Source of the DNA: Imbricaverruca yamaguchii
Lineage: Eukaryota; Arthropoda; Thecostraca; Neoverrucidae
Direction of reading: 5' to 3'
Assembly: GCA_034440575.1 (NCBI GenBank)
Contig: JAOTOL010001648.1
Location: forward strand, 743,501 to 807,500
DNA length: 64,000 bases
The notes under the pieces were generated by a model. It was not told the origin of the DNA and did not search any database. It was given only the letters and a program-made list of their open reading frames with translations. The position numbers were made by a program, and so were the translations under genes. Positions 29,686-64,000 of the stretch are shown piece after piece. Position 1 is the first letter of the stretch, and each line of letters opens with the position of its first letter.

Positions 29686-31918
29686 TCAAGGATAATTTGG
29701 TAAAGGTTCCAAACTTCAACAGAGCAGACATTGACGGCATGAGAGTGGCTTTAAGTACCATCAGATGGGAAGAAGAATTCTCCCATTTAAATGCCTGTGA
29801 AATGTGGGAAAAGTTCAAATCTCGCTTGAAGGAAACTCAGATTAGACATGTCCCCCAAAAGCAAAGACGCAAAAGAAGGGTAGGAAAGCCAGCATGGCTT
29901 ACACCAGACTTGATAAAAGCAATTAAGGCTAAGAAAACTGCATTTAGAGTCTTTAAAGAAGCCTCAAACGTCGATAATCTAAAGGCGTATCGAAAAGCTA
30001 GACACTGTGAAGCAAAAAACCAGAGCAGCAAAGCGTGCAAAAGAACTGGATTTAGCTAGAAACTGTAATGGGTACAGTCAAAAGTTCTTTAGTTTCTACA
30101 AGCTGAGTAAAGTTTCTGGCACAATTGGTCCACTGGAAGTAAACGGGACTACATTGGGTGAGGATAGTGAGATGGTCGAGGAGCTGAGCAAGCAGTTCAA
30201 ATCAGTGTTTACATTGGAAGATATGACCAATCTGCCGACCGTACACCATAGTTCAGTGACATGGGATCTGATAAATGATGTTAATTTCATTGATAGTGAT
30301 GTTGTTTACAATCATATCAGGAAAATAAAGCCAAACAAGGCAGCAGGACCTGATGATATTTATGCTAGGGTGTGGCGGGAAACTGAAAAGGAACTGGCAT
30401 TTCCACTTAGTATAATATTTTGTAGATCAGTTTCACAAAATGAAATTCCAACCGATTGGAAAAGGGCAAATGTAGTTCCTATTTTCAAGAAAGGAGAAAG
30501 AGGGAAAGTTGAAAACTATAGGCCAGTAAGTCTCGCATCCCTAGTCTGCAAGGTACTCGAATCAATTATCAAGGATAGAATAGTTAGGTATCTGGAAGGT
30601 AGCAGATTGATTCAAGATACTCAACATGGGTTTAGAAAAGGACGATCGTGTCTCACAAATCTCTTGGACTTTTTTAACTTCGCCACAGAACAATTTGATC
30701 AGGGAAATCAGGTTCATGTAGCATATCTTGACTTTAGTAAGGCCTTTGACAAGGTACCCCATAAACGGTTAATGATACAGCTTCAGTCCCATGGTATTGC
30801 AGGTAGCATCTTAAAATGGATAGAGTTGTGGCTTTCAGATAGACAGCAAAGAGTGATGCTAAATGGTACAAAGTCATCATGGCAAAATGTTCTTAGTGGA
30901 GTCCCCCAGTGGTCAGTACTGGGGCCACTCCTCTTCATTATATTTGTAAAGAACATTGAATGTTGCCTAAGCAGTGAAGCTTTGATACTTGCGGATAATT
31001 TGAAGGTCTTTAGGGCAATAACAGGACAAGATGAGCATATCTCGCTGCAAAAAGACTTAAACGAACTTGTGAAGTGGTCAGAAGAATGGCAAATTAAATT
31101 AAATTTTGATAAGTGCAAAATCATGCATGTACGTAAGCAGCATATGAAGGCTCCATACTTGATGGGTGGCCAAGTGCTATCAGTAACTCAACAGGAGAAG
31201 GATTTAGGTGTTATTCTAAACACAAAACTGGGGGCATCAGAACAGACCAGGGAAGCCAGGAAGAAGGCACTGAGAATGCTCGGGGCAATAAATAGGAATG
31301 TATCATACAGAAGTGAGGAAGTGATCAGGAAGCTTTACTGTGCATACGTCAGGCCACATTTGGAATACTGCATCCAAGCTTGGTCTCCTAGCTATGAAAA
31401 AGATTGTTGGCTTTTAGAGAGAGTACAAAAGAGGGCTACAAAAATGGTTAATGGCATAAGCAACCTGGCATATGAGGAAAGATTGAAGAAATTGAATATG
31501 TTTTCACTTAGATATAGAAGGCTGAGAGATCTCATCGAGGTTTTTAAATTTGTCCGTGGACTGGAGAGGGGATACCTTGGGGAAATGTTTGAATTGAACA
31601 GAAATTATGCAATTAGAGGTCATAAATTCAAAATTAAAGTTAACCACAGCAGAACAAGGTTAAGGCAAACTTTCTTCACCAACAGGGTAGTAGAACACTG
31701 GAACCAGCTGCCAGAAAACATTGTCGGTAGCAGCACATTGAACATCTTTAAAAACAGCATAGACAATCATTATAAGAATAGAGGGCTTGCTTTTCAGTAT
31801 TACAGGGAGGGCTGATTGACAGATTTGGTGGGCAACTGGTTCAGTGTACAGAGTGCAACCAAGAAGGGCCCTTGTGGCTCATAGTTGCACTAATCTTTTA
31901 TGTCTTTATGTCTTTATG
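29686..31918 (+). mobile_element. CR1/L2-like LINE, 5'-truncated, inactive
   Basis: The element starts inside the linker between endonuclease and reverse transcriptase (frame at 29622-30059, NLVKVPNFNRADIDGMR), then shifts frame near 30002-30015 into a 602-codon RT frame (30007-31815). The RT core carries YRPVSLASLVCKVLE, GFRKGRSCLTNL and the first catalytic Asp in YLDFSKAFDKVPHKRL. The second catalytic motif is ADN (30991-30999) where ADD is required, and SGVPQGS reads SGVPQWS (W at 30910). The C-terminal region (RLRDLIEVFKFVRG, VVEHWNQLPENIV) is typical of the clade. The 3' end is an 8-bp (TTTATGTC)-type microsatellite, as seen in CR1 elements. It is dead by truncation, frameshift and active-site change. 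Confidence 0.92.
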
Positions 31919-32075: not shown

Positions 32076-34768
32076 TTTTCCGCGCCAGCTCAATCGGTTG
32101 AGCACACATCAGCCTCTCTGATTTTGACGACATTGTGTCGGAAGTTCTCATGCTCTGATCACGAAATTGAAACCTTTTAGGATTCCGTGACCAGCCGTTT
32201 TTAGTTGTCAATGACGTCAAATGTTGGTATGGTACCGAGAACTGATCCAGAAAATAACAGCAATATATTTGCAAGGAGTAGAAATTTCCAAAAATTGAAT
32301 ACGTTAAGACGCAAATATAGTGTCGTCGACAATGTGAAAGCATAGGGTACTTATAACCTTGATTTGTCGTCGGTTGCTTGAACTCTAGTAACGGATGACA
32401 CCAATACTTGCATCAATTTATGGGAAAATGCGCATACCATTTTAAATTGGCATCAATTAGCCATTCGATGCAATTAATAAATTAACCACAAAATTGGTAC
32501 CAGCTGGAACAGTGCCGAAGCGACGTCAAGCAACAAGTTTGGAGCCGCACCGGGACCAGTTTCCCAGTGCGGACCCGCTTCCTAGGCGCCCACCCGCTTC
32601 CCCCAGTCTCGTGTCCTGTTGCCCCAACTAACACAATCGTCCGTTTCCGTATGCTGTGTTGGGTGAGGTGTGCCAGATAAATGTGGCCACCCGAGTAATT
32701 TTAGTCGTGAATATGTTTCTTAGCGGTTCGGAATGTTCTGTGACGGCCCACGTCTCTCTATAGACCTTCCGGTATTTGAATATAACAGATGGTGGTTTTC
32801 AATGCGATGTTAGCTCATTACTATTTTTCGCTATTTTCTTGACGTTTTAGCCGAATAAGTGATCAAGTAGCAACATGTTAACAGGCTTTCTATGTTACCC
32901 CATTAGGATTCATCTGAAATTATGAAACTCAACTATATATCTGGATCGAACGACAATTATCCTCTTGACATCTCTAACTAGGAAACGCGCACGGGATGGC
33001 CCATTTCACTCTGAAGTTGGTGCCTATTTTCCTTCGGCAATCAAGAATAGTCACGTTTTTGTTTAGAGCGAGTACACTACCCACGAATGTATCAACACCA
33101 GCGACGCGAATATGCTCTGTGCCTCAAATTATGCCATGTGGTGCTTTCAGTAGTTAAATGAGAACATAACTTGGACACATATCCGCGTTATGTCCAATTC
33201 AAGTGTTGTTCTAGAAAGTAGTACGCATATTGTGTACTGTATGGTGATTTAATTGCGTATGTTCACAGCTCTGGAAAGCGTGACCAGTACCTCTTGACCT
33301 ATGACTCGCATCTCCCTTGATTGTCAATCCTTCCCCAAAGTGAAGCACTTACAATTTTTGCAACTCTGCAAGTGAAAATACCGTTTGATTAAGATTGAGC
33401 ACGAACCCATCTGCAAACTGAGCAGGCTGCAGAACTGAATAGTTTAGCTCTCTAAAATGTGTGATTAAGCTTGGTTAACGCTTCAATGGCCCATGTCTTC
33501 CTGGCTTTTCCTACTGTGCGGGGCGACGCCAGATGGAGTGGCGAGAGATCTATCAATTTGGCGCCTAGTTCGTGGTCGTATTGGTTGTCCACTAGAGCTC
33601 GCGTAGTTCATCAGTGGTCTGGTATTAAACACATCGGCCTGCGTCACATCTGTTGCGCAGGACATGATGCACTGAAGCTAGAGCCGTGAACCACCCAACA
33701 TACACCGACACGCTAATGGCTTGTGTGTTTGACAGGATCTCGAATGACGTGTCCGTTGACGTTTTGAACTCGTTTACACGCGGCAGGCATGCTGATCTGA
33801 TGCAACGAAACGTACGGATGCATGCGACGCCATAGGCATCACACATGCAATGTCTATAATGTCACCAAGTTTTGGGGCATATGTTCACCTGTCGCCCGCT
33901 GAGGCATCGCCCTTAAAGAGGGAGGTTCAATAAATGTTGGCCCCGGGTATCTGCATAACGCTTACAGCGCGGTCATAAATAACGTTAAATATGCGTCGAT
34001 GGAGATCTGAAGCGGCCTCCCCACAACGTCTCCTCTCATGGACATGTATGCTATTTAGTCATGTGAAGAGACACGAGCTTGGTACAAAGCTTGGCGAATC
34101 TTGGAAAACTTGTGGCACGGTTATTGGATGCCTTGTAGTGTTTGTCTTCGATTAGTGATAGGTGACAGAAGTCTGACAGACATGTCAGTCAAAGTATTGA
34201 AGTTGGCTCCGTAATTGACGTCCTCTCACATAATCCGCCATGTGCACGGTTCACTTTCCCGCGTCTGCCCCTCATCCCGATCTACCTGTTTGATCTGGAC
34301 GGCGTCGGTGGCGTCGGATGCTCTGAGTGCGCGAGGGTAGATTCCTCGGTGCCGCTCCGACTATCTGGGCGCCAATGGACCACGTGTCTGAGCTCGACGC
34401 GGTCGGGGGCACGGTCTGCGCCGGTCGCCGGCCTCCCTGCAACAGTTGTGCCGCGTCACTGTTTGCTGTCTGGTGCCGTTTCGCCGCCGGAGGTTCAGCC
34501 CAGACTGTCTGCGCCCCAGCATTCACAGCGGCACCGGTGGACTTAATTGGGGTGGTCCGAAATGAAACCGGGACTCGCTGCACCCGTGTCGACGGTGAAG
34601 CAATACTTGCGTCATCTGTTTGAATGTGTGCAATAAGAGCCGCGATCGTCGTGGCTTGTGAGTACAGGTAGAAAAGTAATCCAAGCCTTGCAGAGACTGA
34701 TCGAAGTAGTTTTACGACAGAGGGTCACCGAAGGCGAATCACTCCAGCCCGGGAGGCACCCCGGATAG
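32076..34768. other. No gene recognised
   Basis: Mostly AT-richer unique sequence with short frames only. A TGGTGAACC-type SINE family-2 tail fragment may be present near 33685-33705 (GTGAACCACCCAACATACAC). From 34270 to 34620 the DNA is GC-rich without a recognisable exon. Confidence 0.45.
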
Positions 34769-35719
34769 GTGTCGCCACGGGTGTCACTACGGGTGTCACT
34801 ACGGGTGTCACTACGGGTGTCGCCACGGGTGTCGCCACGGGTGTCGCCACGGGTGTCGCCACGGGTGTCGCCACGGGTGTCGCCACGGGTGTCGCCACGG
34901 GTGTCGCCACGGGTGTCGCCACGGGTGTCGCCACGGGTGTCGCCACGGGTGTCGCCACGGGTGTCTACGGGTGTCGCTACGGGTGTCGCCACGGGTGTCA
35001 CCACGGGTGTCACCACGGGTGTCACCACGGGTGTCACCACGGGTGTCACCACGGGTGTCACCACGGGTGTCACCACGGGTGTCACCACGGGTGTCACCAC
35101 GGGTGTCACCACGGGTGTCACCACGGGTGTCACCACGGGTGTCACCACGGGTGTCACCACGGGTGTCACCACGGGTGTCACCACGGGTGTCACCACGGGT
35201 GTCACCACGGGTGTCACCACGGGTGTCACCACGGGTGTCACCACGGGTGTCACCACGGGTGTCACCACGGGTGTCACCACGGGTGTCACCACGGGTGTCA
35301 CCACGGGTGTCACCACGGGTGTCACCACGGGTGTCACCACGGGTGTCACCACGGGTGTCACCACGGGTGTCACCACGGGTGTCACCACGGGTGTCACCAC
35401 GGGTGTCACCACGGGTGTCACCACGGGTGTCACCACGGGTGTCACCACGGGTGTCACCACGGGTGTCACCACGGGTGTCACCACGGGTGTCACCACGGGT
35501 GTCACCACGGGTGTCACCACGGGTGTCACCACGGGTGTCACCACGGGTGTCACCACGGGTGTCACCACGGGTGTCGCCACGGGTGTCGCCACGGGTGTCG
35601 CCACGGGTGTCGCCACGGGTGTCGCCACGGGTGTCGCCACGGGTGTCGCCACGGGTGTCGCCACGGGTGTCGCCACGGGTGTCGCCACGGGTGTCGCCAC
35701 GGGTGTCGCCACGGGTGTT
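34769..35719. repeat. 12-bp minisatellite, ~79 copies in three blocks
   Basis: The unit is ACGGGTGTCACC or ACGGGTGTCGCC. To about 34997 most copies are the GCC type (with three ACT types and one shortened copy). From about 34998 to 35574 some 48 consecutive copies are the identical ACC type, and the final dozen are GCC type again. The long open frames on both strands (Thr-Gly-Val-Thr, Arg-Gly-Asp-Thr repeats and others) follow from the 12-bp period. Confidence 0.98.
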
Positions 35720-39835: not shown

Positions 39836-40066
39836 CCGGGTAGGGGCCTCCTCAACTTCTAGGGGGCGGCGCTCCCAGCCTCACGGCAAGGGGCAACTTC
39901 CCCTCCCCCGGTGGCTCCGCCCCTGCCTCTGGTACAAACGCTGGTCGTCTAATTTCGTATTTAATCGTCGTTTTTGTGTTCGGTATCCCACAATTATCGC
40001 ATTGAGAGGTGGCGCCACTGACGCTGGTGTCTGTTTCGCAGATGGCGCCTCGGGCAGCGGCCAGCT

Positions 40067-42241
40067 ATGGAGATTGGGCTCGGAGCCGACGCCGAGCCTG
40101 AACAGCTCGCTGGTGCCTGGCCCGAGCTGCACTCTGCGTCGCACCCGTCTGCCCCGCGCTCCGTCTTTCACACACCCTCCGTCATGGCCGGCACCCCGCC
40201 GGCAGCCGAGCTGGCCGACGCCGAGCAGTTTCTCGAGTTAGACGACTGTAGCAGCGGGGGGCCGGCGAAGGTCACCGACGCTGGCTGTGCCCCGTTGCCG
40301 GCGAGCGGCAGCAGGCGGCAGCCGTCGCCGGGCCGGGCCGTCGCGGCGCCCAGCGCGTGTCAGCGGTCCGCTAGCCTGCCGACGTCCGCTGCCAACGGCA
40401 GCGGCCGGAACGACACCCACCAGCGGTCTGGGAACGTGCTGGCGTCCACCGCCAACGGCAACAGCCGGAACGGCACCTGCCAGCGGCCGGGCGGCGCGCC
40501 GGCGGCCGACTGCGTGTTCGCCTCGCCGGCCGCGGGCGGCCGCCAGCTGTCTCCGCCGCCGGCCGACCACGCGTCCAACGGCAACGGCAACGGCGCCGGG
40601 GGCAGTAACGGCGTGCATCGGCGATCGGCCGGCGTGCCGGTGCCGGGCGGCGGCCGCCAGGTTGCCGTGACCGGCACGCCCGACCAAAGCCCCGGCGACA
40701 AGGTGGACGCCTGGCTGCGCACCTGCCCGTCCGACAGCAGCGCCGAGGACGAGGCCGAGCCGGCCGACTCGTCCGACGAGCTGCAGTTCGCCGTGCGCGA
40801 CGACGGGCTGGCCAGCGAGCTGGAGGACAGCTCCGCCGAGGAGGAAATGGTGGACGCCATCTCCTGCCAGGAAGTCGGCGTCATCCACCACCTTCTTGTG
40901 CAGGGCTGTCTCATGCTCGACATCGAACTGCCCGAGGCCGACGGCGCAGACGGCGCCGCCGACCGTCTACCGCCACCACCGCCACTGCCGGAGGAGCCCC
41001 GCGAGACGCCCGTCGTCGGCCGCCAGTCTGCCGAGCCGGCCGCCAGTGGCGGTGGTGTCGGCTACACCGCTCTGCAGGTGGTGGTCGGTGAGGCGATGGA
41101 GCGGGCGGCCGCCCGTGCCGTGCCTGGCGCAGCCGAGCAGTCCGTTCTTCACGCGACCGGAGCAATAGCCCGATCGGATGTCTCTGGCAAAACAGGGGAC
41201 AACGGATACTCGCCGGAAGAGGCGAACGGCTGTGAGGTGAAGAGTAGTGCCGCGGGTGGTCATCTGGGGGGTGACGAGGTGCAGGACGAGAGGGACGTAA
41301 CCGAGGCGGTGCGAGATGCCAAAGTGCGGGAGATTGCGGAGGTGCTGGGAGTGCGGGATGTGGGCGGAGACTGTGCGGGGGCCAAGGCGGACGTCGACGA
41401 CCCAGAGCTGCTGGAGGCGCTGGAGGGGGTGCAGCACAGCGTGCTGGAGGGGCCGGATTCGGCCGACGTCGACACCGGCGAAGAGGATGCCTCTGTCAGC
41501 GCCAACTCATCCGACTTCATGTCGCTCCACTTCCCGAAGCGCAGCACCTCGCTCAAGTCGGGCAAGACGCCGCCCTGCACGCCCAGCCACAAGAAGTACG
41601 TGCGCTTCGCCGACGCGATGGGCCTGGACCTGCAGCGGGTGCACCTGTTCCGCGACGAGGTGCCGACCGTGCCGAAGGCGGCGTTCCGCGGCCTGGAGCC
41701 GGGCTCGCCGCCGCCGTCGCCGCTGCCCGACACGTTCCAGATGACGTTCGGCACGGCGGCGACGGGCGGCGGCAGCAGCGCGGCGCGCGCCGGCGGACGC
41801 CACCTGGTGCCGCTGTTCCTGCAGCCGGGCGGCGGCGTCGGCTTCCTGGACCGGCTGCACCGGCAACGCGTCAGCCTGGAGAGCGTCGTGTGCTGCGACG
41901 AGCGGCTGACCGTGCGCGGCGTGGTCCGCGTGCTCAACATCGACTTTCACAAGGCGGTGCGCGTGCGCCACACGACGGACGGCTGGCGCTCGTGGCGCGA
42001 GGCGGCCGCCGAGTACGTGCACGGCTCGTGCGACGGCCTGTCCGACCGGTTCGCGTTCACGCTGCCGGCCGGCGCGCTGGCCGCCGGCCAGGAGCTGCAG
42101 TTCGTGGTGCGCTTCGACTGCCTGGGCGAGACGCACTGGGACAACAACGCCGGCGCCAACTACACCGTGCAGCTGATGGGGCCGCCGCCCAGTCCGCCCC
42201 AGTACAGCCCGCCCGGCGGCTGGACGGCCGGACGCTACTGA
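40067..42241 (+). CDS. Glycogen-targeting regulatory subunit of protein phosphatase 1
   Basis: The 724-residue product would tether PP1 catalytic subunit to glycogen, promoting dephosphorylation of glycogen synthase and phosphorylase. Residues 509-515 (KKYVRFA) are an RVxF-type PP1-docking motif. About residues 585-705 are a CBM21 domain, with VRHTTDGWRSW and the signature HWDNNAGANYTVQL near the end, close to the family's W-D-N-N-x-x-x-N-Y glycogen/substrate-binding motif. The N-terminal ~500 residues are low-complexity (Ser/Gly/Ala/Asn), with an acidic Ser/Asp patch at about 222-270 and tandem Q-R-S-G-N-type repeats at 105-150, much longer than in the ~300-residue vertebrate R3B/R3C forms. 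A consensus 3' splice site ends at 40041, in frame with this reading frame, so an upstream exon may exist. Met40 (40184) is an alternative start. No intron is needed within the frame. Confidence 0.9.
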   Translation: MEIGLGADAEPEQLAGAWPELHSASHPSAPRSVFHTPSVMAGTPPAAELADAEQFLELDDCSSGGPAKVTDAGCAPLPASGSRRQPSPGRAVAAPSACQRSASLPTSAANGSGRNDTHQRSGNVLASTANGNSRNGTCQRPGGAPAADCVFASPAAGGRQLSPPPADHASNGNGNGAGGSNGVHRRSAGVPVPGGGRQVAVTGTPDQSPGDKVDAWLRTCPSDSSAEDEAEPADSSDELQFAVRDDGLASELEDSSAEEEMVDAISCQEVGVIHHLLVQGCLMLDIELPEADGADGAADRLPPPPPLPEEPRETPVVGRQSAEPAASGGGVGYTALQVVVGEAMERAAARAVPGAAEQSVLHATGAIARSDVSGKTGDNGYSPEEANGCEVKSSAAGGHLGGDEVQDERDVTEAVRDAKVREIAEVLGVRDVGGDCAGAKADVDDPELLEALEGVQHSVLEGPDSADVDTGEEDASVSANSSDFMSLHFPKRSTSLKSGKTPPCTPSHKKYVRFADAMGLDLQRVHLFRDEVPTVPKAAFRGLEPGSPPPSPLPDTFQMTFGTAATGGGSSAARAGGRHLVPLFLQPGGGVGFLDRLHRQRVSLESVVCCDERLTVRGVVRVLNIDFHKAVRVRHTTDGWRSWREAAAEYVHGSCDGLSDRFAFTLPAGALAAGQELQFVVRFDCLGETHWDNNAGANYTVQLMGPPPSPPQYSPPGGWTAGRY

Positions 42242-44377
42242 GCGCCGCCGCCCCCCAGACTGTGTTGCACGCGATGGCCGATGGGTGGCGCGCGCGGCGC
42301 CGCACCGCGGTCGACGTCTCGCCAGTGTTTGCCCGCCGGCGTCTTCACCGCGCCCAACTGTGTGCCGTGTGGTAGCGGCGTTGCCTTGTAATTGGTGTTT
42401 TGCCACAAGGGGCTGGGTGCAGTGCGTCCGTTTTAACGGTAGCTGCTTCAATGGTCACCGGAGAGTTTTTAACGTTTACCATTGGCGACAAGTGCTGTCC
42501 GTCCCCGCAGTTTACATCGAGTGGGGCCGGGACGACGTATCAACGAAGGCGATGCCGGCCAAACGCTCTGCTGCCGGTGCTCAAGGCGTCCTCGGATGTT
42601 GGGATAATGTGCTTCGCGAAATAAACGCTCACATGTTTCGGGCCGTGCAATGTGCAAATCGTTCGTCGGTGCGGTCCCGCACATTGGCACGCGCACATCT
42701 GGGGGGGGGGGGGCTCTATCTACAAACTGCGCACTGCACGTCAATTGTTAGTTATCGAGGGAGCTGCTTTCACAGCGGGTGTGATCGGAGCTCGTACTCG
42801 CCGCCTGGTGACTTAGACTGGTCTTCGCCTGGCTCGGCTGTCCCGCGAGTTTTGTCCCGGCGACCGGAGGAAAACCGGCCCGACCAGGTGGGTGGGGGAA
42901 CCACTGCATGCTGTCTCGCACCGCCACGTTGTCCTCGGCCGTTCACAAAATGCACGGCTGCCGTGGTCAGCGCCACCGGGGTGTATTACAACTTGAACAC
43001 TTGCTCACCCTGCCGCGATGCAATTTACAATGCTGTCCACCCCTGCGGAGGTTGACGCTTTGTATGGCTGTGCCCGCGGAACGGGCCACGCCGCAAACAC
43101 TCATTCGCACGCCCGCCGGTTCGGATCGGAGAAAATGGCCTCCGGTGTCGTTCAGCTGTCAAATGTCAGGTGCGACACGAGCTCGGCCACATACGCTCCC
43201 GTATCACTCCATCCCATCCGTACCTGCATCACTTCATCCGTACCGGCACCACTACATCTCATCAGTACCTGCGTCACCCCACCCCGTCCGCTCCCCGCAA
43301 TGCTGCCCAACCCGCGCATTGGGTTGGCGTATCCCACCAAACGCACCGCACGACCCATGCCAACTGATTCCCCATCAACAAAATCAACGAACACGGTGAA
43401 CGGCAACGTACGAACGGCAACTGTTGTCTATCGGCCGGCGACACGGGCCGGGCTCGCTCGTCCGTGAAGCGTCGCGTTGCGATGGCAACGCTGCGGGTCC
43501 GCCGAGACGGCACCCCGCCCCATCCGGTCCGCGCGCCAAACCAGGTCCGGCGCTCCGTCGCGCCCAGCTCGGCGCAGCTTGTTCCGCTGTTTGGCGTGAA
43601 GTTGGACGGATTGGTGAGCATCGGTGACTGGTCGCCCGCTGTGGAGTCCGGTGGACTTGAACGCCCGGGCCGCGAGTCCGATCGATATTGGCAGGATCTG
43701 AGGAGCCTGCCAAGCCAAGTTTGGCGCATAATCGACCGCTTGTTTGCCAATGTTGGCGAGTTCCGAACAGGTTGAACTTGGCGAAATGCTGGGCTATTTC
43801 AGGTACCTGAAACAAATCCCAGTCGGTCACGATTGACCCGAAATAAAATGAAGTAAATCGCGACTGCTGGTATATGCGGACACGATAAAACTGCAGATAT
43901 AACTCCGTGCCTCCGGTCCGAAATTTAGAACCACTAGTCCTGTACCATGGTCCACAGTGGCGCCGCCCACCCAAACCTGTCTGGCAGACAGCAGCGCCGT
44001 GCTCAGGTGGGGAATCTGTGGGTTCGCCAGGCACAGCCTGTGTATCGCCATTCTGCTGCGTGGCCACGGCAACCGTCACACGTCACACGCCATTCGCGTC
44101 GCGCTACACCACGTATGCCACATGCCACACATCGCGTCTACAGGCCGTCACACAGCTCGGGTGCATGCGCTGACCACCGCCCGGCGACTGGCTCAGTGCG
44201 CGCTCACTGTGTTGCGTTCGTGTCGCCCGGAGAATGGGGGGAGCGTGACCGACAGCAGCAGCAGCGAGAGCTGACCTGGCCCCAGCCGTGGCCCAACGGC
44301 CCCACAGCGGAGAAAGTCGGCAACATAGTCGACAACTTCCACACGATCTGTGTGCCCTGGCGGCCGGCCCTACTCAC
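42242..44377. other. 3' flank of the PP1-subunit gene and intergenic space
   Basis: The first part is presumably 3' UTR. AATAAA occurs at 42620-42625 and again near 43840 on the + strand, either of which could direct polyadenylation. A G-run of about 11 lies near 42702 and a short imperfect repeat of CATCCGTACCTGCATCACTT at about 43205-43290. No RNA gene or exon is recognised. The last exon of the convergent kinase gene might lie here on the - strand. Confidence 0.5.
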
Positions 44378-44449
44378 TTGGCGGCCCAGTTGGTGCGGCC
44401 GTGCAGCGCCGCCTTTGAGCTGGAGACGCCGGTCTGACCCACCTGCGAC
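44378..44449 (-). CDS. Kinase tail exon 8: second HGRTNWAAK copy
   Basis: Acceptor AATACAG, then one base that completes the Lys codon left open by the previous exon (AA|G), 23 codons ending LHGRTNWAA, and a split AA before GTGAGT. Read without splicing it would stop at once (AAG TGA). The end repeats the previous exon's HGRTDWAN in amino acids and in most nucleotides, so it looks like a duplicated exon. Used together, the two exons give a protein with two copies of the C-terminal signature. The exon after this one was not found. Confidence 0.65.
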
Positions 44450-45450: not shown

Positions 45451-45970
45451 GCAACACCCATGGCTTCGCTATTGTATTCGTCAACGACAAATTTGGGAAA
45501 TTGCCACCTGCCCAACACTCGTCAAGGTGAACCCAAGCCAAGCCAAGCCAAGCCAAGCCAAGCCAAGCACACTGCCAAGCAGTGCAGCAGTCTTAGAGTG
45601 AGCGTACTGCTCCCTGCACTGGCCAGCTCCCGCCATTTTCATCATCCACAAAGCCCGCCACCAATCGGTTTAATGCCGCATCAGCTGCTCCATCCGGAGG
45701 ACTTCTTCAGGAACAAATCGCTGTAAGGGCTTTGCGATGCTTACTTTGTGGGCTCTATGTGAATGCATGCAGGAATACAACGGGGACAAAACGTAGGATA
45801 ATATAGGCAATGATAAAATACATGCAGAAATCCCGCTAGAAGACCAGCGTCTCTAATCTACACTCATGAGGCTAACGTGAGCTTGTGTGGCTCTCCGTTG
45901 GCGGCGGCACAGCCATGCCGCTCGTATTCCGCCCCTGAACCTGTCCTGCTGCGGGCGAGGGGGCGCTCAC

Positions 45971-46118
45971 TTGTTGGCCCAGTCGGTGCGTCCGTGCAGA
46001 TTGCCGGCGGAGGCGTTGGTGGCGCGCACGCCCGACGACCTCATCGAGACGGAGCTGTTGTAGTAGGAGCTGGACTGCGCCAGGCCGATGCCAGAGTCCT
46101 GTGCGCCCACACTGCCGC
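45971..46118 (-). CDS. Kinase tail exon 7: C-terminal HGRTDWAN signature
   Basis: Acceptor CCGCCAG, two bases completing Gly, then 48 codons (GSVGAQDSGIGLAQSSSYYN through LHGRTDWAN) and AA before the donor GTGAGC. The Ser-rich stretch followed by H-G-R-T-D-W-A is the conserved C-terminal signature of MAK and CILK1, where it lies within about ten residues of the stop. If the intron were retained the protein would end immediately after Lys (AAG TGA). Confidence 0.85.
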
Positions 46119-46675: not shown

Positions 46676-46834
46676 CTCTCATGACGAGCGATCGCCAGTA
46701 ACCCGAAAATCCAGACAACCGCTGACATCTACGAGCCCTTCTGGCGACGGAATAAAAACGCCATCCGCACCCACCACCACGTTGCTGACACGAGACAGAC
46801 CTAACCATGCTGCCGACACCGCGCACCGACATCC

Positions 46835-47370
46835 ACTGGCCGTACTGCGCGCCCACACCCACTGACCGTACTGCGCGCCCACACCCACTGACCGTACTGC
46901 GCGCCCACACCTACTGACCGTACTGCGCGCCCACACCCACTGACCGTACTGCGCGCCCACACCCACTGACCGTACTGCGCGCCCACACCCACTGACCGTA
47001 CTGCGCGCCCACACCCACTGACCGTACTGCGCGCCCACACCTACTGACCGTACTGCGCGCCCACACCCACTGACCGCACTGCGCACCCACACCTACTGAC
47101 CGTACTGCGCACCCACACCCACTGACCGTACTGCGCGCCCACACCCACTGACCGTACTGCGCGCCCACACCCACTGACCGTACTGCGTGCCCACACCCAC
47201 TGACCCACTGACCGTACTGCGCGCCCACACCCACTGACCGTACTGCGCGCCCACACCCACTGACCGTACTGCGCGCCCACACCCACTGACCGTACTGCGC
47301 GCCCACACCCACTGACCGCACTGCGCGCCCACACCTACTGACCGTACTGCGCGCCCACACCCACTGACCG
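46835..47370. repeat. 26-bp minisatellite seeded on a splice donor
   Basis: About 20 tandem copies of CGTACTGCGCGCCCACACCC plus ACTGAC. On the kinase strand each copy reads GCGCAGTACG|GTCAGTGGGT, which is identical to the last bases of kinase exon 6 and its 5' splice site. The array begins directly at the exon (47369), so every unit carries a copy of the donor. One copy is interrupted by an 8-bp partial duplication near 47205. Confidence 0.95.
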
Positions 47371-47547
47371 TACTGCGCGTTGCGCGTGTTCTGTCCGGCC
47401 ACGTATCTGGCCTTGTTCATGTAGACCTGCTTGGCCGAGATGCCCATGTTCTTGGAGCTGGAGCGGGCCGCCGCCTCGACGGCGATCGTCGACGGCACGA
47501 TCGCCATCGTCCTGGAGAGCATCTGGCTCAGACGCAGGTGGCTGGGG
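47369..47547 (-). CDS. Kinase tail exon 6
   Basis: It starts after CCCGGCAG with one base completing a Gly codon, has 59 codons (PSHLRLSQMLSRTMAIVPST through QNTRNAQY) and one base, then GTCAGT. SAKQVYMNKARYVAGQNTRN matches the S-A-K-Q-H-Y-L-x-x-S-R-Y-L-P-G segment of MAK and CILK1 tails. The phase joins exons 5 and 7 exactly. Both borders touch minisatellites: 26-bp units carrying the donor on one side and 15-bp units next to the acceptor on the other. Confidence 0.88.
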
Positions 47548-47550
47548 CTG

Positions 47551-48305
47551 CCGGGTCAGGACGGATCCGGTCAGGACGGGCCGGGTCAGGACGGGCCGGG
47601 TCAGGACGGGCCGGGTCAGGACGGGTCCGGTCAGGACGGGCCGGGTCAGGACGGGCCGGGTCAGGACGGGCCGGGTCAGGACGGGCCGGGTCAGGACTTC
47701 CGGGTCAGGACGGCCCAGGTTGCGACGGCCCGGGTCACGACGGGCCGGGTCAGGACGGCCTAGGTCGCGACAGCCCGGGTCAGGATGGGCCAGATCAGGT
47801 CGGGCCAGATCAGGTCAGGCCGGGTCACGACGGGCCGGGTCAGGACTTCCGGGTCAGGACTTCCGGGTCACGACGGACCAGGTCAGGACGGGCTGGGTCA
47901 GGACGGCCCAGGTCAGGACGGCCCAGGTCGCGACGGGCCGGGTCACGACGGGCCGGGTCACGACGGGCCGGGTCACGACGGGCCGGGTCACGACGGGCCG
48001 GGTCACGACGGGCCGGGTCAGGACGGGCCGGGTCACGACGGGCCGGGTCAGGACGGGCCGGGTCACGACGGGCCGGGTCACGACGGCCCAGGTCGCGACG
48101 GGCCGGGTCACGACGGGCCGGGTCACGACGGGCCGGGTCAGGACGGGCCGGGTCAGGACGGGCCAGGTCAGGTCGGGCCGGGTCAGGACGGGCCGGGTCA
48201 GGACGGGCCGGGTCAGATCAGGTCGGGCCGGGTCAGGACGGGCAAGATCAGGTCGGGCCAGATCAGGACGGGCCGGGTCAGGACGGGCCGGGTCCGGCCA
48301 GGACA
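47551..48305. repeat. 15-bp minisatellite at a splice acceptor
   Basis: About 50 copies of GGGCCGGGTCAGGAC and variants (GGTCACGAC, GGTTGCGAC, AGATCAGGTC). On the kinase strand the common unit reads GTCCTGACCCGGCCC, and the last one merges with the acceptor of exon 6 (CCTGACCCGGCAG). Many units contain CTGAC, which fits the metazoan branch-site consensus. Confidence 0.95.
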
Positions 48306-49574: not shown

Positions 49575-49739
49575 CCGACGCCCTCCTTCTCCATGTCGTC
49601 CCACTTGGAGGCGCGCCGCGCGGCCTGGTCGGCGCCGAACGAGCCCCGACTGGGCCTGGAGGCCGGCGCCGGCGCCGCCGCCGGCACCGTGCTGCTGCTG
49701 CCGCCGCCCAGCTTCTGGCCCACCTGGAAGTAGGGGAAC
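49575..49739 (-). CDS. Kinase exon 5: end of catalytic domain and start of tail
   Basis: The acceptor GCGGCCAG is followed by one base completing Arg, then FPYFQVGQKLGGGSSSTVPA and onward to KWDDMEKEGV, with GG before GTAGGT (in-frame TAG if not spliced). R-F/Y-P-Y-F-Q-V-G-Q is the family's boundary between C-lobe and tail. The tail is Ala/Pro/Ser/Gly-rich. Confidence 0.9.
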
Positions 49740-52232: not shown

Positions 52233-52408
52233 CTGAGCGCCTGCTGAGCGGTGGGCCTCCTGTTGGGGTTCCAGCGCAGTAGGTCGCTGATCAGGGTGAT
52301 CGCCTCGGGGCTGGCCGTCGGGATGAGCGTCTCCAGCGAGGTGGGGCTGAACTGCGGGAAGGTGAAGTTCATCGCGCTCGACAGCTGGTAGCCCTCCGGC
52401 CAGTCGCG
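52233..52408 (-). CDS. Kinase exon 4: C-lobe (RDWPEG to QQALR)
   Basis: Acceptor TTGGCCGCAG, then 58 codons [20 protein letters not shown] through [13 protein letters not shown], and AG before GTCAGAG. W-P-E-G-Y-x-L-A/S-S-x-M-N-F-x-F-P-Q, L-I-P-N/T-A-S and D-P/N-x-K/R-R-P-T-A-x-Q-A-L are family signatures; the conserved Arg of subdomain XI is present. The acceptor side (52415-52480) has a short GCGTCGGGTCAG repeat. Confidence 0.95.
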
Positions 52409-53689: not shown

Positions 53690-53861
53690 CTTGTCTGGTG
53701 TGCCAAGCACCGAGCAGATCTTGAAGATCTCGTCGATCTCCGAGCTGCCGGGGAAGAGCGGCCGGTAGGTGTACACCTCGGCCATGATGCAGCCCACCGC
53801 CCAGATGTCGATCGGACTGCTGTAGATGGTGGAGCGGAGCAGCACCTCCGGCGCCCGGTAC
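53690..53861 (-). CDS. Kinase exon 3: APE motif and CDK-like C-lobe
   Basis: Acceptor CTGACCTCAG, one base completing the Trp of STRW, 57 codons [20 protein letters not shown] through [10 protein letters not shown], then GTGCCA as donor (a weak but GT-type site). R-A-P-E is subdomain VIII, and [13 protein letters not shown] subdomain IX. Length and sequence agree closely with MAK and CILK1. Confidence 0.95.
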
Positions 53862-54055
53862 CTGAGGTCAGGTCAGGTCATGTCATGTCGCAGGTCGTGG
53901 GTCACGTCATGTGATGCGAAGCAGCACGTCCAGGGAACGGCAGCTGACGTGAGGTAAGGTCAGGTCAGGTCATGTCACAGGCCTTGGGTTACGTCCCGTG
54001 GTGCGATGCAGCACGTCCAGCACGTGCAGACGTGAGGTCAGGTCAGGTTGCACAC
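53862..54055. repeat. GGTCA pentamer repeat at a splice acceptor
   Basis: Two patches of (AGGTC)n, at 53864-53895 and 53945-53980/54030-54050, lie at and upstream of the exon 3 acceptor. On the transcribed strand they read CTGACCTGACCTGACCTCAG. Confidence 0.8.
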
Positions 54056-56681: not shown

Positions 56682-56791
56682 CAGCGGGTGGACACGTAGT
56701 CGGTGTAGGGCGGCCGGGAGCGGATCTCGCGCGCCAGTCCGAAGTCGGCGATCTTGATCAGGTCGGGACCCATGCACAGCAGGTTCTCCGG
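56682..56791 (-). CDS. Kinase exon 2: DFG and TDY activation loop
   Basis: Acceptor GTCTGTGCTGCAG, then 36 codons [20 protein letters not shown] through [10 protein letters not shown], and TG before GTGAGT. It contains the catalytic Asn (PEN), the Mg-binding DFG and the T-D-Y motif that in MAK and CILK1 is phosphorylated on Thr by CDK20/CCRK and on Tyr by autophosphorylation. All residues expected for activity in this stretch are present. Confidence 0.97.
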
Positions 56792-58095: not shown

Positions 58096-58365
58096 ACCAC
58101 TGTGGTCCGGTACTCCCGCTTACCTTCATGTCACGGTGGAACCACTGCGGTCTGGTACTCCCGCTTACCTTCATGTCACGGTGGAACCACTGCGGTTTGG
58201 TACTCCCGCTTACCTTCATGTCACGGTGGAACCACTGCGGTCTGGTACTCCCGCTTACCTCCATGTCACGGTGGAACCACTGCGGTCTGGTACTCCCGCT
58301 TACCTTCATGTCACGGTGGAACCACTGCGGTCTGGTACTCCCGCTTACCTTCATGTCACGGTGGA
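58096..58365. repeat. 45-bp minisatellite made of exon end plus donor
   Basis: Six units of exactly 45 bp, starting at 58096, 58141, 58186, 58231, 58276 and 58321. On the kinase strand each is TTCCACCGTGACATGAAG (codons F-H-R-D-M-K) followed by 27 bp beginning GTAAGCGGGAG. The 58321 unit contains the real exon end; the other five lie in the intron. Copies differ by one to four substitutions (one has GAG for AAG before the donor). No stop occurs in the coding phase until 58076. Confidence 0.97.
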
Positions 58366-58451
58366 AGAAGCCGTGTTTGTGCATGAAGGCCAGACCCTGC
58401 AGGACCTGGTACATGATGTTGCGTATCGCCGGCTCCGAGAGCACCTTGTCC
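58349..58451 (-). CDS. Kinase exon 1 in window: catalytic loop HRDMK
   Basis: Acceptor TGATTGCAG, one base, then 34 codons [20 protein letters not shown] through [10 protein letters not shown], and donor GTAAGC. The catalytic Asp and Lys of H-R-D-x-K are intact, and the next exon supplies PEN, giving HRDMKPEN as in MAK. Upstream exons with the N-lobe are outside the window. The last six codons and the donor are tandemly repeated in the following intron. Confidence 0.96.
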
Positions 58452-58526
58452 CTGCAATCATTCCAAGGTACGCCGGTCATCAGGCAGCCGTATGCCTAGT
58501 CCAGTGTTGGTGCAGAGCAACTGATG

Positions 58527-58610
58527 TGCCCGCCCTTCCTACTAGGGTGGGGCAGAGGACACCATATGGCCTCAGCTGCTAAGTGCGTCGTCGCAACCGC
58601 CTGCGTAGCA
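58527..58610 (+). mobile_element. SINE family 3, 3' part
   Basis: GCCCGCCCTTCCTACTAGGG followed by CACCATATGGCCTCAGCTGC and AAGTGCGTCGTCGCAAC. The head is missing. Confidence 0.7.
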
Positions 58611-58975
58611 ACTAACACCGACATTTGTGCTATCGTTAATGCTGTCAATTATCACAGCCACCAAAAAAAAACATCGCAAAACCACAAGTAGCAATGTCAA
58701 CAACAATGCTAATGTAATATCAGTGCCTACGGCGACCGGACGTTTTACCAGCATTACAAGGTAACGTCTTCACCTCGACAAACAAAAACGCAGCAAACTG
58801 CCCGGCTTTGGTCGAAGCGAGGAGACACCTGTCACCAATAATGGATGTAATTATCACCAATAATGGACGACTACGACAAGGCGAGCGTGTGATTCGCGGT
58901 GGCTTCCACCGGTCGTGCGCAGCTCTCCCAGGTGGATCGAGACTGAGGTTCAGGACGCCCACACATTGCGCAGTA

Positions 58976-59125
58976 GCCGTAGCTCAGTGGCTAAGCTGGG
59001 TGTTCAGCATGCACCAGAGATGAGGAGTTCGATTCCTCGCGCCGCCCGCCCTTCCTGCCAGGGTGAGGGGCAAGCGACGCCATATGGCCGCAGCTGTTGA
59101 TTGTGTCGTAATGTCACAAGCGCCC
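58976..59125 (+). mobile_element. SINE family 3, complete head
   Basis: GTAGCCGTAGCTCAGTGGCT is an A-box-containing tRNA-like head and GAGTTCGATTCCTCG the B box. The body GCCCGCCCTTCCTGCCAGGG is shared with the copy at 28304, and the end is GTGTCGTAATGTCAC. Because the tRNA-like head runs straight into SINE body, it is not a tRNA gene. Confidence 0.8.
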
Positions 59126-59644
59126 GCGTAGCGATGCGTCTACATTTGAAAATGCAGATGCAAAACAACACGTAATAGGAAACATATTTGCATGCACTTG
59201 AGTGGACTCATTTCTATATGCATCTTAACCGACCTATGTCAACTGCATCTTAGAAAATTACGATAAGCATAATGCAGCATCATGGATATCACAACACAAC
59301 ATCGGCTTCTCTTATTTTCAGGTCTGTGCAATCCTGCTAGACACCACACGACGTTAAGGTGTCTTGCTTAGCTATACTCCAATACAGCACAAGGAAGTTA
59401 ATGTTATTAGACATGTCTTTGCCGGCAGAAATCCAAATTTTTCCCGGCAATTTTTGCAGCCAATTCACATGTGACGCCGAACTGAAAAGCAGTGTAGCAA
59501 CACTGTTGCACACAGGAAAACCAGCTGCTGCAAAAACTATTGGATTGCGCGATGCCAATCGCTTGTGCATTGCGGCGGCCACGACCAGCGGCGGGACGGC
59601 CGATTTTGACCGTCCGACAGCCTCATCCAAACACTGCCTGCGGT
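59126..59644. other. No gene recognised
   Basis: AT-richer unique sequence upstream of the next array. Confidence 0.5.
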
Positions 59645-60790
59645 CGCTGCGGTGTCACTGCCGGCTGACGGCGTGGCACCTGTGCCACCGCTGACCGTGT
59701 CACTGCCGGCCGACCTGTGCCACTGCTGACTACTGCCGGCCGACGGCGTGACACCTGTGACACCGCTGACTGTGTCACTCCCGGCCGACGGCGTGACACC
59801 TGTGACACCGCTGACTGGGTCACTGCCGGCCGACGGCGTGACACCTGTGACACCGCTGACTGTGTCACTGCCGGCCGACGGCGTGACACCTGTGCCACCG
59901 CTGACTGTGTCACTGCCGGCCGACCTGTGCCACCGCTGACTACTGCCGGCCGACGGCGTGACACCTGTGACACCGCTGACTGGGTCACTGCCGGCGACGG
60001 CGTGGCACTGTGCCACCGCTGACGGGCACCACGGCCACCCACCGCTGACTACTCCGACCAAGCTGACACCTGTGACAGGACTGTGTCACTGCGGGACGGC
60101 GTGGCACCTGTGCCACCGCTGCTGGTACCACTGGCCGACCTGTGCCACCGCTGACTACTGCCGACCAACGGCGTGACACCTGTGACACAGCTGACTGTCA
60201 CTGCCGGCAGACGGCGTGGCACCTGTGCCACCGCTGACTGGGTCGCCACTGGCCGACCTGTGCCACCGCTGACTACTGCCGACCAACGGCGTGACACCTG
60301 TGACACAGCTGACTGTGTCACTGCCGGCAGACGGCGTGGCACCTGTGCCACCGCTGACTGGGTCACCACTCGACCTGTGCCACCGCTGACTACTGCCGGC
60401 CGACGGCGTGACACCTGTGACACCGCTGACTGTGTCACTGCCGGCCGACGGCGTGACACCTGTGCCACCGCTGACTGGGTCACTACCGGCCGACCTGTGC
60501 CACCGCTGACTACTGCCGACCAACGGCGTGACACCTGTGACACCGCTGACTGGGTCACTGCCGGCAGACGGCGTGGCCACTGCCACCACGCTACGGCGTG
60601 ACACCTGTGCCACCGCTGACTGGGTCACTACCGGCCGACCTGTGCCACCGCTGACTACTGCCGACCAACGGCGTGACACCTGTGACACAGCTGACTGTCA
60701 CTGCCGGCAGACGGCGTGGCACCTGTGCCACCGCTGACTGGGTCACCACTGGCCGACCTGTGGCACCGCTGACTGTGTCACTACCGGCCG
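59645..60790. repeat. 45-bp minisatellite with higher-order pattern
   Basis: About 25 units of 45 bp or shortened forms (CCGGCCGACGGCGTGACACC, TGTGACACCGCTGACTGTGT, CACTG). Short units (CCGACCTGTGCCACCGCTGAC) alternate with full ones, giving a higher-order period in places. GTGTCAC and GTGACAC flank the GC-rich centre as a perfect 7-bp inverted repeat. Confidence 0.95.
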
Positions 60791-60884
60791 ACTGCGACGC
60801 ACGAGGTGGGAACTGGATACTGCAGGCAAGCGACGACACTCCCCGCAGCATGGCGGCACTGACCTGGCTCCTGGACGCGCTCCT

Positions 60885-60945
60885 TTGATTGCTTATTTGG
60901 GCTTCAGGCCGCGCCGACTACGAGGTCATTTAGCGCCCGTGGACG
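60885..60945 (+). repeat. Dispersed family-4 core (subtype A)
   Basis: TTGATTGCTTATTTGGGCTT, then CAGGCCGCGCCGACTACGAG, then GTCATTTAGCGCCCGTGG. Confidence 0.75.
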
Positions 60946-61895
60946 CGCCCCTGGGAGATCGGCGTCATAACAAGTGGGTTTTCTGCCATCCTCCCCGAGA
61001 ACGGAGATAATGGTCCGAGTGGAAAAATACGCACACGGGCCCGTCGATGTGCATGGGGGTAGTTCCGCACGAACATCCACATGAATCAGCACTGGTGGTC
61101 GCCAATCGGGCAGCAGCATACTCGATCATAGTTGCACATTTCTGCGACATCGAATTACAGCGGCGCAGCGCTCAATCATAGCCACAACCAGAGTCAATCA
61201 TGGCAACAGCTATGATTGACACCGCACTGATTGACATTGACACTGATAGCACACTGTAACGAGTCCCTCCATCACCGAATCACTGCGGCGCAGTCCTAAC
61301 CACAACCAAAGCCGAGCATAGCCGGAGCCGGAGTCAATCTCAGCGCACGGCGTCCAGCTCGGTCAGCACGCGATCCGACCGTGGCCGGCGGCGGCGACCT
61401 CGACCGGCCGTCAGGCGACGCTGTACCACGCCTTCAAGGTCTTCCATTGACCCGACTGTGACGTCGGCGCCGGCGGGGTCACCGGAAGCGGGTCCACTCA
61501 CCGCCCGGGATCAGAGTGCACGCTAATAGGGCTGAAGAGCGAGCGACTGTAGGGCTGTGTGTGAGGAGGGTGAGGAGAAAAAGGCGGATTTTATCGGGGT
61601 GGGAGAGGAGGAGGGACAGACGACGTACATCCTGAGGCGTGTGTATCGTGACTGTGAAAGGTCACCGGGTGGACTTCGCCGTCGGTACCAAGGCCGGTGT
61701 CAGCCCGAGACGGCGCACGGCAGCGACTGCGGCTGCCGCTGAGGTCACCCGTGAGGTGTCACGAGGCGACACCACCCCGTCACCGTCACCGGCAGTCAGC
61801 TGGCCAGCCACGTGTCGGCGGTCGTCTGGGCGGCGAGCGGCGTGGCCCGACGTGGTGCTGTAACACCAGGTCTGGACACACCTGCCGGTAGATTC
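60946..61895. other. No confirmed gene
   Basis: A possible 53-bp - strand exon (61502-61554) is discussed under findings. Repeated CAATCATAGC-type words occur at 61125-61260. The rest is CpG-rich without recognisable coding sequence. Confidence 0.4.
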
Positions 61896-62190
61896 GGGCA
61901 CACTAGACTGCCGACAGAGCAGACTCCGCCACAGCATACTGGAGAAGCACAGACTGCGCCACACCAGGCTGGCGGCAGACTAGGCCACACCAGACTGGAG
62001 ACAGGACAGACTGCGCCACACCAGGCTGGCGGCAGACTAGGCCACACCAGACTGGAGACAGGACAGACTGCGCCACACCAGGCAGGAGGCAGACTCCGTC
62101 ACCAGACTGGAGGCAGGACAGACTCCGCCATAGCAAACTGGCTGCAGGGTAGACTCCGCCACACCATACTGGCGGTAGGGCAGGCGCCGC
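61896..62190. repeat. ~54-bp minisatellite
   Basis: Five imperfect copies of CTGCGCCACACCAGGCTGGC, then GGCAGACTAGGCCACACCAG, then ACTGGAGACAGGACAGA, with half-unit variants. Confidence 0.88.
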
Positions 62191-62615
62191 CACGTAGAGC
62201 GCTGCCCGGGCCACCTCGCGTCACGTCACGGCAAGTTGGCTCGGTTGCTCCAGGCTGTGCGAGGCCGTGGCGGGGCTTTGGCGACATTACCAGTCACTCC
62301 AAGGCTCTGGTGATCTCACACTGCCCGAGTCTGCGCTACGCATCAACATACCAACAGCGTCGAGCAACTTCCGGGTTGCGAACAAACAAAAACGCACGTG
62401 CATGAAAAGATACGCCTGGGGAAAAGCAATGCAAATGCCAGCTTGGTTCTATATTTCCTTCACAACTTTTTGGACTCACTGGGAAGTCGAGCTCCCCAAA
62501 ATGAACGACAACCTACTAAAACCATGCGACAACCCACCTTTGTCCAGCTCGCACACTTTGCTGGCTGAAAAACAAGGCATGCATTTACAATCCTTCACAA
62601 CCAGCTCGATGATAG

Positions 62616-62784
62616 AGGCGGGGATGGCCGAGTGGTTGAGGTGTTGAGCTCTGGGTATCAAAGGTCCGGGTTCAACACTCTCACCACTCGGAACATTTCC
62701 CAATCCCGCGGCCCACCGGCGAGACAGTGTAGGCAGCGCCATTAGCCGTGATCGTCGAGAACCACTCAATACAAACAAACAAAC
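62616..62784 (+). mobile_element. tRNA-derived SINE, family 2, complete
   Basis: The head GGCGGGGATGGCCGAGTGGT has a class II tRNA-like A box, and GGGTTCAACACTC is the B box. The body CCCAATCCCGCGGCCCACCG follows and the tail is (CAAA)n-like. The flanks AGCTCGATGATAG (62603-62615) and AGCTCAATAATAG (62785-62797) are an imperfect 13-bp target duplication. Confidence 0.88.
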
Positions 62785-62797
62785 AGCTCAATAATAG

Positions 62798-63189
62798 CTA
62801 ATGACGATCGGATATTCCTTCTTTGCATCACCCATGCACCATAATCGGTGTCTAGTGCACCAAACGCTAAGATCAATTGGTTTCACCTCGGTTCGTCTAG
62901 TACGCTAATAGCACTGTTATTGGACCGATCTTTTATTGCCAAACCTTCAAATACAGCATCACTAAAAACGGTCGCACCGAAACTTACCGACATCACAGCG
63001 GCTCCGGGTTAGATTGCTCTCCTCAAATATGCAGACAAAGCTGATACCACTGCAATTAAGAGCTGAACTGTAGCTAAACTGTTCGCATAGTAAGGAATGT
63101 TATGCTTAGGATCTCGGACATTGCCATGCAACCATGAAAACTAGTGGATGCAATGGATGTTTCTGAATGGCGCATTTCCCTGGGACGGC
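62798..63189. other. No gene recognised
   Basis: Unique sequence between two SINE copies. Confidence 0.5.
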
Positions 63190-63375
63190 CAAATCAGCCA
63201 GCTTGTCAACAAGCGTTTGTCTGTGTTTGTTGGGCGGTTCACGACGCACTTTGTGCACGATCACGGCTGATGGCGCTGCCCGCGCTGACTCGCTGGTGAG
63301 CCACGGGATTGTGAAGTGTTCCAAGTGGTGCGAGTGTTAAACCCGGGACCCTCGTGTTCAGAGTTAACCACTGTT
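63190..63375 (-). mobile_element. SINE family 2, diverged
   Basis: On the - strand: GGGTTTAACACTCGCACCAC (B box region), CACTTCACAATCCCGTGGCT, AGCGCCATCAGCCGTGATCG and GTCGTGAACCGCCCAACAAA. It is more diverged than the copy at 62616. Confidence 0.7.
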
Positions 63376-64000
63376 ATATTTCAACTTCTAGCCGCTCTAA
63401 CCTCATCCTCGACGCTTGTCAAAAGTCAATTTTATTTTCACATCGTTTCCTCGATTTGGACCAATGTACTACCTGTTTCAAATGAAAACATGCGTCTTCC
63501 TCATTTTCTTTTTGAATTGCATGTCAGTGCCAGGAAGGGTTTATAGAAGTCAAGTACACGGCGCACAACATTGCTTCAATTTCGGTGTCCGCATCGCGAG
63601 TGGTGTGAATACTGGGGAGAGGGCCGTACCTACTCCGAAGCCACTGCGTTAGAATCGCCAGGCGGGCGATCAGATGGGATGTGATGGGAGAGCGAGCTGA
63701 CCAAAGTGCGTATCGGCTGACGCACGACGAGTCTGCACCGCTGGCGGTCCGCATATGCCCAGAGCAGTGGTTGTAACGCAGCGGCCACTGCGAGCCGGCC
63801 GGGCTGCAGTTAACCACGTGCAAACTCGTGGTGCGGCCAGCGAGCAGTGCCAGACACCGCGCGACATCTGCATCAAGCCGGCTGTCTCTGGCTGTCGGTG
63901 TGTGCATACACTAGTGGATGCCTTCGATCATCCCCGGCATCACTAGGGGCTATAAGCGACATACGTCGAGAGCAGGCTAAGATAGTCGTTGCTGTTATCC
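63376..64000. other. No gene recognised
   Basis: Unique sequence to the window end. Open frames on both strands are at most ~130 codons and unplaced. Confidence 0.5.

Follow-up and report, generated by a model that had tools for sequence, protein, structure and literature searches.

A six-copy minisatellite across the exon-intron boundary of a MAK/ICK-type kinase gene in the barnacle Imbricaverruca yamaguchii

The window, i.e. the whole stretch of 64,000 nucleotides of Imbricaverruca yamaguchii DNA that was analyzed, contains on its minus strand eight exons (A-H, 58451 to 44378; Table 1) which form one open frame of 379 residues when joined through their first donors. To judge from its protein matches, the gene is a kinase of the MAK/ICK (RCK) type whose closest named relatives are barnacle proteins. 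In detail, the 191-aa piece encoded by the joined exons A-D matches the Pfam domain Pkinase (2e-49) and, in the best 120 of 6,776 matches, has the ICK protein of Amphibalanus amphitrite (P0001) on top with 91% identity over 98% of the query. When exons A-F were used as query (298 aa scored; best 120 of 5,212 matches), the five best proteins covered the whole query, namely P0198 (80%), the A. amphitrite MAK protein P0199 (80%), the Pollicipes ICK-like proteins P0200 (78%) and P0201 (75%) and P0001 (73%); four of them are named barnacle proteins and P0198 is barnacle by inference. Among the matches listed, the next one with full coverage is P0204 (64%), and lower matches include insect proteins with up to 85% identity over 67% of the query. 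The copy in the window is closer to P0198-P0200, and the ancient genome duplication reported for barnacles (PMC11331182) could be the source of two barnacle MAK/ICK copies.

An exon for the N-terminal lobe (GxGxxG, VAIK) was not found by tblastn in 58452-64000 and probably lies beyond the window, while at the other end orthologues extend a few residues past exon H. The ends of exons G and H (45966-45999 and 44373-44406, minus strand) carry the same motif, LHGRT(D/N)WA(N/A)K, with 88% identity over 34 bp, and paired motifs resembling it also occur in P0198-P0200. Elsewhere in the window, a long plus-strand ORF at 40022-42238, possibly a single-exon gene, contains a CBM21 domain (3.8e-26), which is the kind of domain found in glycogen-targeting subunits of protein phosphatase 1. 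A retroelement is likely at 29983-31812, where a plus-strand ORF of 610 codons encodes a reverse transcriptase domain (RVT_1, 9.1e-32). At 34768-35718, a 12-bp unit is repeated 79 times (98% matches, TRF); in this stretch, five of the six frames stay open for more than 320 codons, and one of the minus-strand frames reads RGDT repeatedly.

Table 1. Exons of the kinase gene and repeats at or near their boundaries, given in window positions
Feature	Position	Strand	Evidence
Exon A, RDKVLSE...FHRDMK	58349..58451	-	tblastn with barnacle proteins, 94-97% identity to P0001, P0199, P0200 and P0201
Exon B, PENLLC...VSTRW, joined to A	56682..56791	-	tblastn, open frame
Exon C, WYRAPEV...GTPDK	53690..53861	-	tblastn, open frame
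Exon D, RDWPEGY...QQAL	52233..52408	-	tblastn, open frame
Exon E, FPYFQVGQKLGGG...EKEGV	49575..49739	-	tblastn, open frame
Exon F, PSHLRLSQML...NTRNAQYG	47369..47547	-	tblastn, open frame; orthologues continue NAQYG-(S/N)
Exon G, GSVGAQDSG...LHGRTDWAN	45971..46118	-	tblastn, open frame when joined
Exon H, YNKYRSQVGQ...LHGRTNWAA	44378..44464	-	tblastn, open frame when joined
45-bp minisatellite at exon A, six copies, 18 exonic and 27 intronic bases per unit, each with GTAAGC	58097..58366	-	TRF, in-phase copies, identity
Donor-spanning array at exon F, 26-bp unit, about 21 copies, including the last 11 exonic bases of F	46821..47379	-	TRF
87-bp repeat, 2.2 copies, ends 2 bp from exon C acceptor	53863..54048	-	TRF
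15-bp array, 49.5 copies, ends 3 bp from exon F acceptor, intronic bases only	47550..48294	-	TRF

At the end of exon A, TRF reports a repeat at 58096-58366 with a period of 45, 6.0 copies, 97% matches and a score of 514. Read in phase on the minus strand, copies 1-6 occupy 58322-58366, 58277-58321, 58232-58276, 58187-58231, 58142-58186 and 58097-58141, and the first intron bases after their donors are 58348, 58303, 58258, 58213, 58168 and 58123, respectively. Each copy consists of the codons TTC CAC CGT GAC ATG AAG (GAG at the end of copy 3) and, on the intronic side, of GTAAGC plus 21 more bases, and the GTAAGC donor as well as the sequence AGGT is present in six of six copies. Only four substitutions separate the 270 bp from the consensus, one each in copies 3 and 4 and two in copy 6, and the single one within the exonic part turns AAG into GAG, i.e. 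K into E, in copy 3; the mean pairwise identity among the six copies is 97.0%. Upstream of copy 1 lies the authentic exon (CACGGCTTC) and upstream of each other copy CAGTGG, and downstream of copy 6 a stop is soon reached in the coding phase. The splice signal is thus repeated in all units, which span the exon-intron boundary, as is characteristic of the boundary duplications known from amphioxus as 'mirages'.

These data bear out the original prediction of six in-frame 45-bp copies, made of six codons plus 27 intronic bases and each provided with a near-identical donor. Its view that copy 1 is the real exon end also holds, since barnacle proteins read HRDMK-PENLLC and PENLLC is encoded by exon B. 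It had placed the array at 58096-58365, which is the right location but one base out of phase, and the donor at 58349, which is the right site, although this base is the last of the exon and 58348 the first of the intron. All copies are indeed free of stops in the coding phase; this openness is, however, weak evidence, because 73% of simulated 27-nt spacers starting with GTAAGC remain open and a length divisible by 3 is a one-in-three event.

The gene contains a second donor-spanning array, at exon F, where the first intron base is 47368. Its donor cores read GTCAGT in 20 of 21 cases and GCCAGT in one; in detail, TACG|GTCAGT occurs 18 times and TGCG|GTCAGT twice, one of the 21 cores departing from these. 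Exon F ends with NAQYG, which is present in all five of P0198, P0199, P0200, P0201 and P0001. A 26-bp unit cannot be divided into whole codons, so two thirds of the later donors would shift the frame, as one would expect of arrays that are not under selection for coding. The 87-bp repeat near exon C consists of intronic bases only, and its upstream copies lack the AG. In the A. amphitrite protein P0199, SVAGTESGIALT is found twice after NAQYG, and a 3' splice site that was translated could account for the residues in between; to go by this gene model only, another barnacle seems to have undergone a duplication on the acceptor side.

Repeats are plentiful in this region. TRF gave 95 rows over the 64 kb, and repeats with a period of at least 10 cover 12,489 of the 64,000 bp (19.5%). 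Within the kinase gene they make up 27.9% of the intron bp as against 29 of 1,140 coding bp, and all of these coding bases belong to exon ends, 18 to that of exon A and 11 to that of exon F, no other such repeat in the gene containing any. Among rotated exon sets, 47 of 4,692 held as little repeat (0.9% in a run with slightly rougher ends of exons G and H). The other intronic minisatellites of the window belong to the same size class as the exon A array and differ from it in that, within the gene, only the arrays at exons A and F include coding bases.

A test for a concentration of minisatellites at splice boundaries gave no clear sign of one. Its statistics rest on repeats with a period of at least 10, so that the CGC run following the donor of exon B and other short repeats are left out of them. 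Over exons A-H, repeats enclose two of 16 boundaries, compared with 3.1 expected from the window coverage, so that no targeting of boundaries is needed; five of 16 lie within 15 bp. For exons A-F, two of 12 boundaries are inside repeats, with 2.3 expected over the window (rotation p 0.67) and 3.4 within the gene (p 0.89), and five of 12 are at most 15 bp away, with 2.6 (p 0.15) and 3.8 (p 0.33) expected, respectively. The exon A array itself is far above chance, yet such arrays are common in the window. The pattern fits repeats that arise anywhere, are lost from exon interiors and persist when they merely overlap an exon end.

Relatives provide information on the intron and on the array. Among 77 of 86 candidate fragment matches to exon A plus the array, HRDxKP is uninterrupted in 71 and interrupted in six. 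Fifteen of the 71 stop exactly at TRW, as genomic ORFs ending at the donor of exon B would, suggesting that A and B are one exon in at least some other animals. Two of the interrupted fragments, P0121 and P0122, which are taken as barnacle by their likeness to P0001, run from HRDMK into 93 and 73 unrelated, repeat-free residues; they thus read past the end of exon A, and the intron between A and B is common to these relatives while the array is absent within the stretch seen. In P0157, HRDIK is followed by 32 unrelated residues, with the break at the end of exon A in an apparently different lineage, whereas P0184, P0189 and P0191 are interrupted at other places. The HRDMK|PEN intron (58348-56792, minus strand) may therefore be phylogenetically restricted, and its gain may have occurred in or near barnacles. 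HRDMK-PENLLC without an insert is found in the five best full-coverage proteins, whose species are not known to carry the array.

The six donors of the exon A array are identical from -3 to +6, apart from the GAG of copy 3, and their calculated U1 pairing is -9.5 or -9.6 kcal/mol, so that donor strength gives copy 1 no advantage. The donors of exons B-F range from -5.3 (C) to -11.4 kcal/mol (E), that of exon F having -5.4. Folding of exon A together with the array revealed no unusual stability (z -0.73; 19 of 100 shuffles at least as stable) and no sign that the later donors are hidden; Rfam (gathering threshold) yielded 0 matches and ARAGORN 0 genes. When identical donors are duplicated, the intron-proximal one is often favoured. 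According to PMC5585400, intron-proximal donors are activated by SRSF1 and intron-distal ones by hnRNP A1. Such rules do not plainly point to the first donor, and a tendency towards intron-proximal sites speaks against its dominance. Joined in silico, the product of donor n contains n-1 added 15-residue units and its last copy rebuilds FHRDMKPEN, or HRDMEPEN with donor 3. In-frame isoforms with one to five extra units are thus possible on paper. The number of added units agrees with the original prediction; it puts them inside the catalytic loop, but since the unit ends with FHRDMK the insert can just as well be placed before an intact loop. The substitutions among the six copies show no sign of selection on the extra ones.

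How the array is used can be read in different ways. With stochastically competing donors, all six AGGT sites would be used at some rate and a ladder of products with 0-5 extra 15-residue units would result. Six equal AAG|GTAAGC sites (GAG in copy 3), a unit divisible by 3 without a stop and an intact final FHRDMKPEN in every product but that of donor 3 speak in favour of it. On the other hand, units of 45 nt are probably below the length that can itself be spliced out, and no second HRDxK was seen in the 314 proteins collected from the listed matches, nor in the 77 fragment matches to exon A plus the array, which counts for little as the array-bearing species is apparently outside that database. 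The production of ubiquitin ladders from human UBC through tandem dual-specific AGGT sites may serve as a precedent (PMC10809524), although the units there are coding and 228 nt apart, and the authors of the amphioxus work state that repeated AG/GT signals could be cryptic sites (PMC3087553), whereas splicing is reported there to be undisturbed by mirages (PMC3087553, PMC3902484). All in all, we consider such competition unlikely but worth keeping in view. Rather doubtful is a ladder that depends on copy number, in which an allele would mix kinases with zero to five extra units and the array length would set the active fraction.

Errors of assembly, by which the copy number would be wrong or the array spurious, are a known hazard of tandem repeats, and the BflGb6 array of amphioxus appeared aberrantly assembled in a genome draft (PMC3087553). 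However, three copies carry private substitutions, 270 bp are easily spanned by long reads and TRF finds many other arrays in the window, which makes an artefact very unlikely here. The suggestion that donor choice might act as a regulated switch that inactivates the kinase found no support. With 15n residues inserted next to the catalytic loop, the enzyme would probably lose its function; but the array is missing in two barnacle-like relatives, the extra copies show no constraint, their lone exonic change being Lys to Glu, the donors do not differ distinguishably and the sister array at exon F, with its 26-bp unit, is out of frame. A regulated switch of this kind can hardly be upheld.

We favour, with a probability of roughly 0.7, a young, boundary-spanning, 'mirage'-like minisatellite which stems from ordinary repeat turnover and of which mostly donor 1 is used. 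A 45-bp stretch astride the 5' splice site of exon A would have been duplicated in tandem and then expanded into the intron, in a region rich in minisatellites where arrays would be purged from coding sequence and survive where they overlap just an exon end. The spliceosome would most often choose the first donor, which adjoins the body of the real exon, for pairing with exon B, giving the normal HRDMK-PENLLC kinase, and copies 2-6 would be removed with the intron. We infer this origin, as well as the dominance of donor 1; the latter is preferred because amphioxus mirages are reported with undisturbed splicing and because disabling a conserved kinase is expected to be costly. The array is probably harmless. 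As far as the sequence tells, it is real, has an ordinary cause and belongs to a known kind, its putative consequence for splicing being unusual.

If donor 1 alone is used, the array is a well-tolerated repeat of modest interest. Should a splicing ladder exist, the arrays at exons A and F would constitute a natural experiment on the choice among identical tandem donors. One intron with six identical in-frame donors and another with about twenty frame-shifting ones would offer a natural test of position versus exon context. Boundary-spanning minisatellites, known from lancelets, would moreover be extended to a crustacean, in which a single gene has two of them on the donor side.

The original prediction knew of no described case. 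This stands for the HRD motif within the literature searched, but not for the kind, which is not new, as boundary-duplicating minisatellites have been published in amphioxus. Beyond amphioxus none were recognised among the papers listed (titles and the starts of abstracts), and others may exist. Among barnacles, the Pollicipes genome paper reports that RepeatMasker masked 3.2%, nearly all of it simple or low-complexity repeat, and the main text of the Balanus improvisus paper does not mention 'tandem' or 'minisatellite'.

In amphioxus, mirages are described as minisatellite-like duplications of exon-intron boundaries in Adh3, TnC and the globins BflGb6 and BflGb9, and similar imperfect duplications in PGBD5 (PMC3087553, PMC3902484); such duplications have been proposed to feed intron gain (PMC3087553). 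As in the exon A array, the tandem units hold an exon end together with its splice signal and adjoin the authentic boundary. Either the donor or the acceptor side can be affected in amphioxus, the exon A array being on the donor side, and the likeness of units is comparable in range, with 81-100% in BflGb6 and a mean of 97% here. The barnacle case differs by its crustacean host, its frame-keeping, stop-free unit and the HRDxK exon end of a kinase. Haplotype differences in length were seen in amphioxus and undisturbed splicing was inferred from RT-PCR, whereas the barnacle array is known from one sequence. Human UBC likewise has tandem AGGT sites at a frame-keeping spacing, but with coding units, and its ladder splicing has been demonstrated by RT-PCR (PMC10809524).
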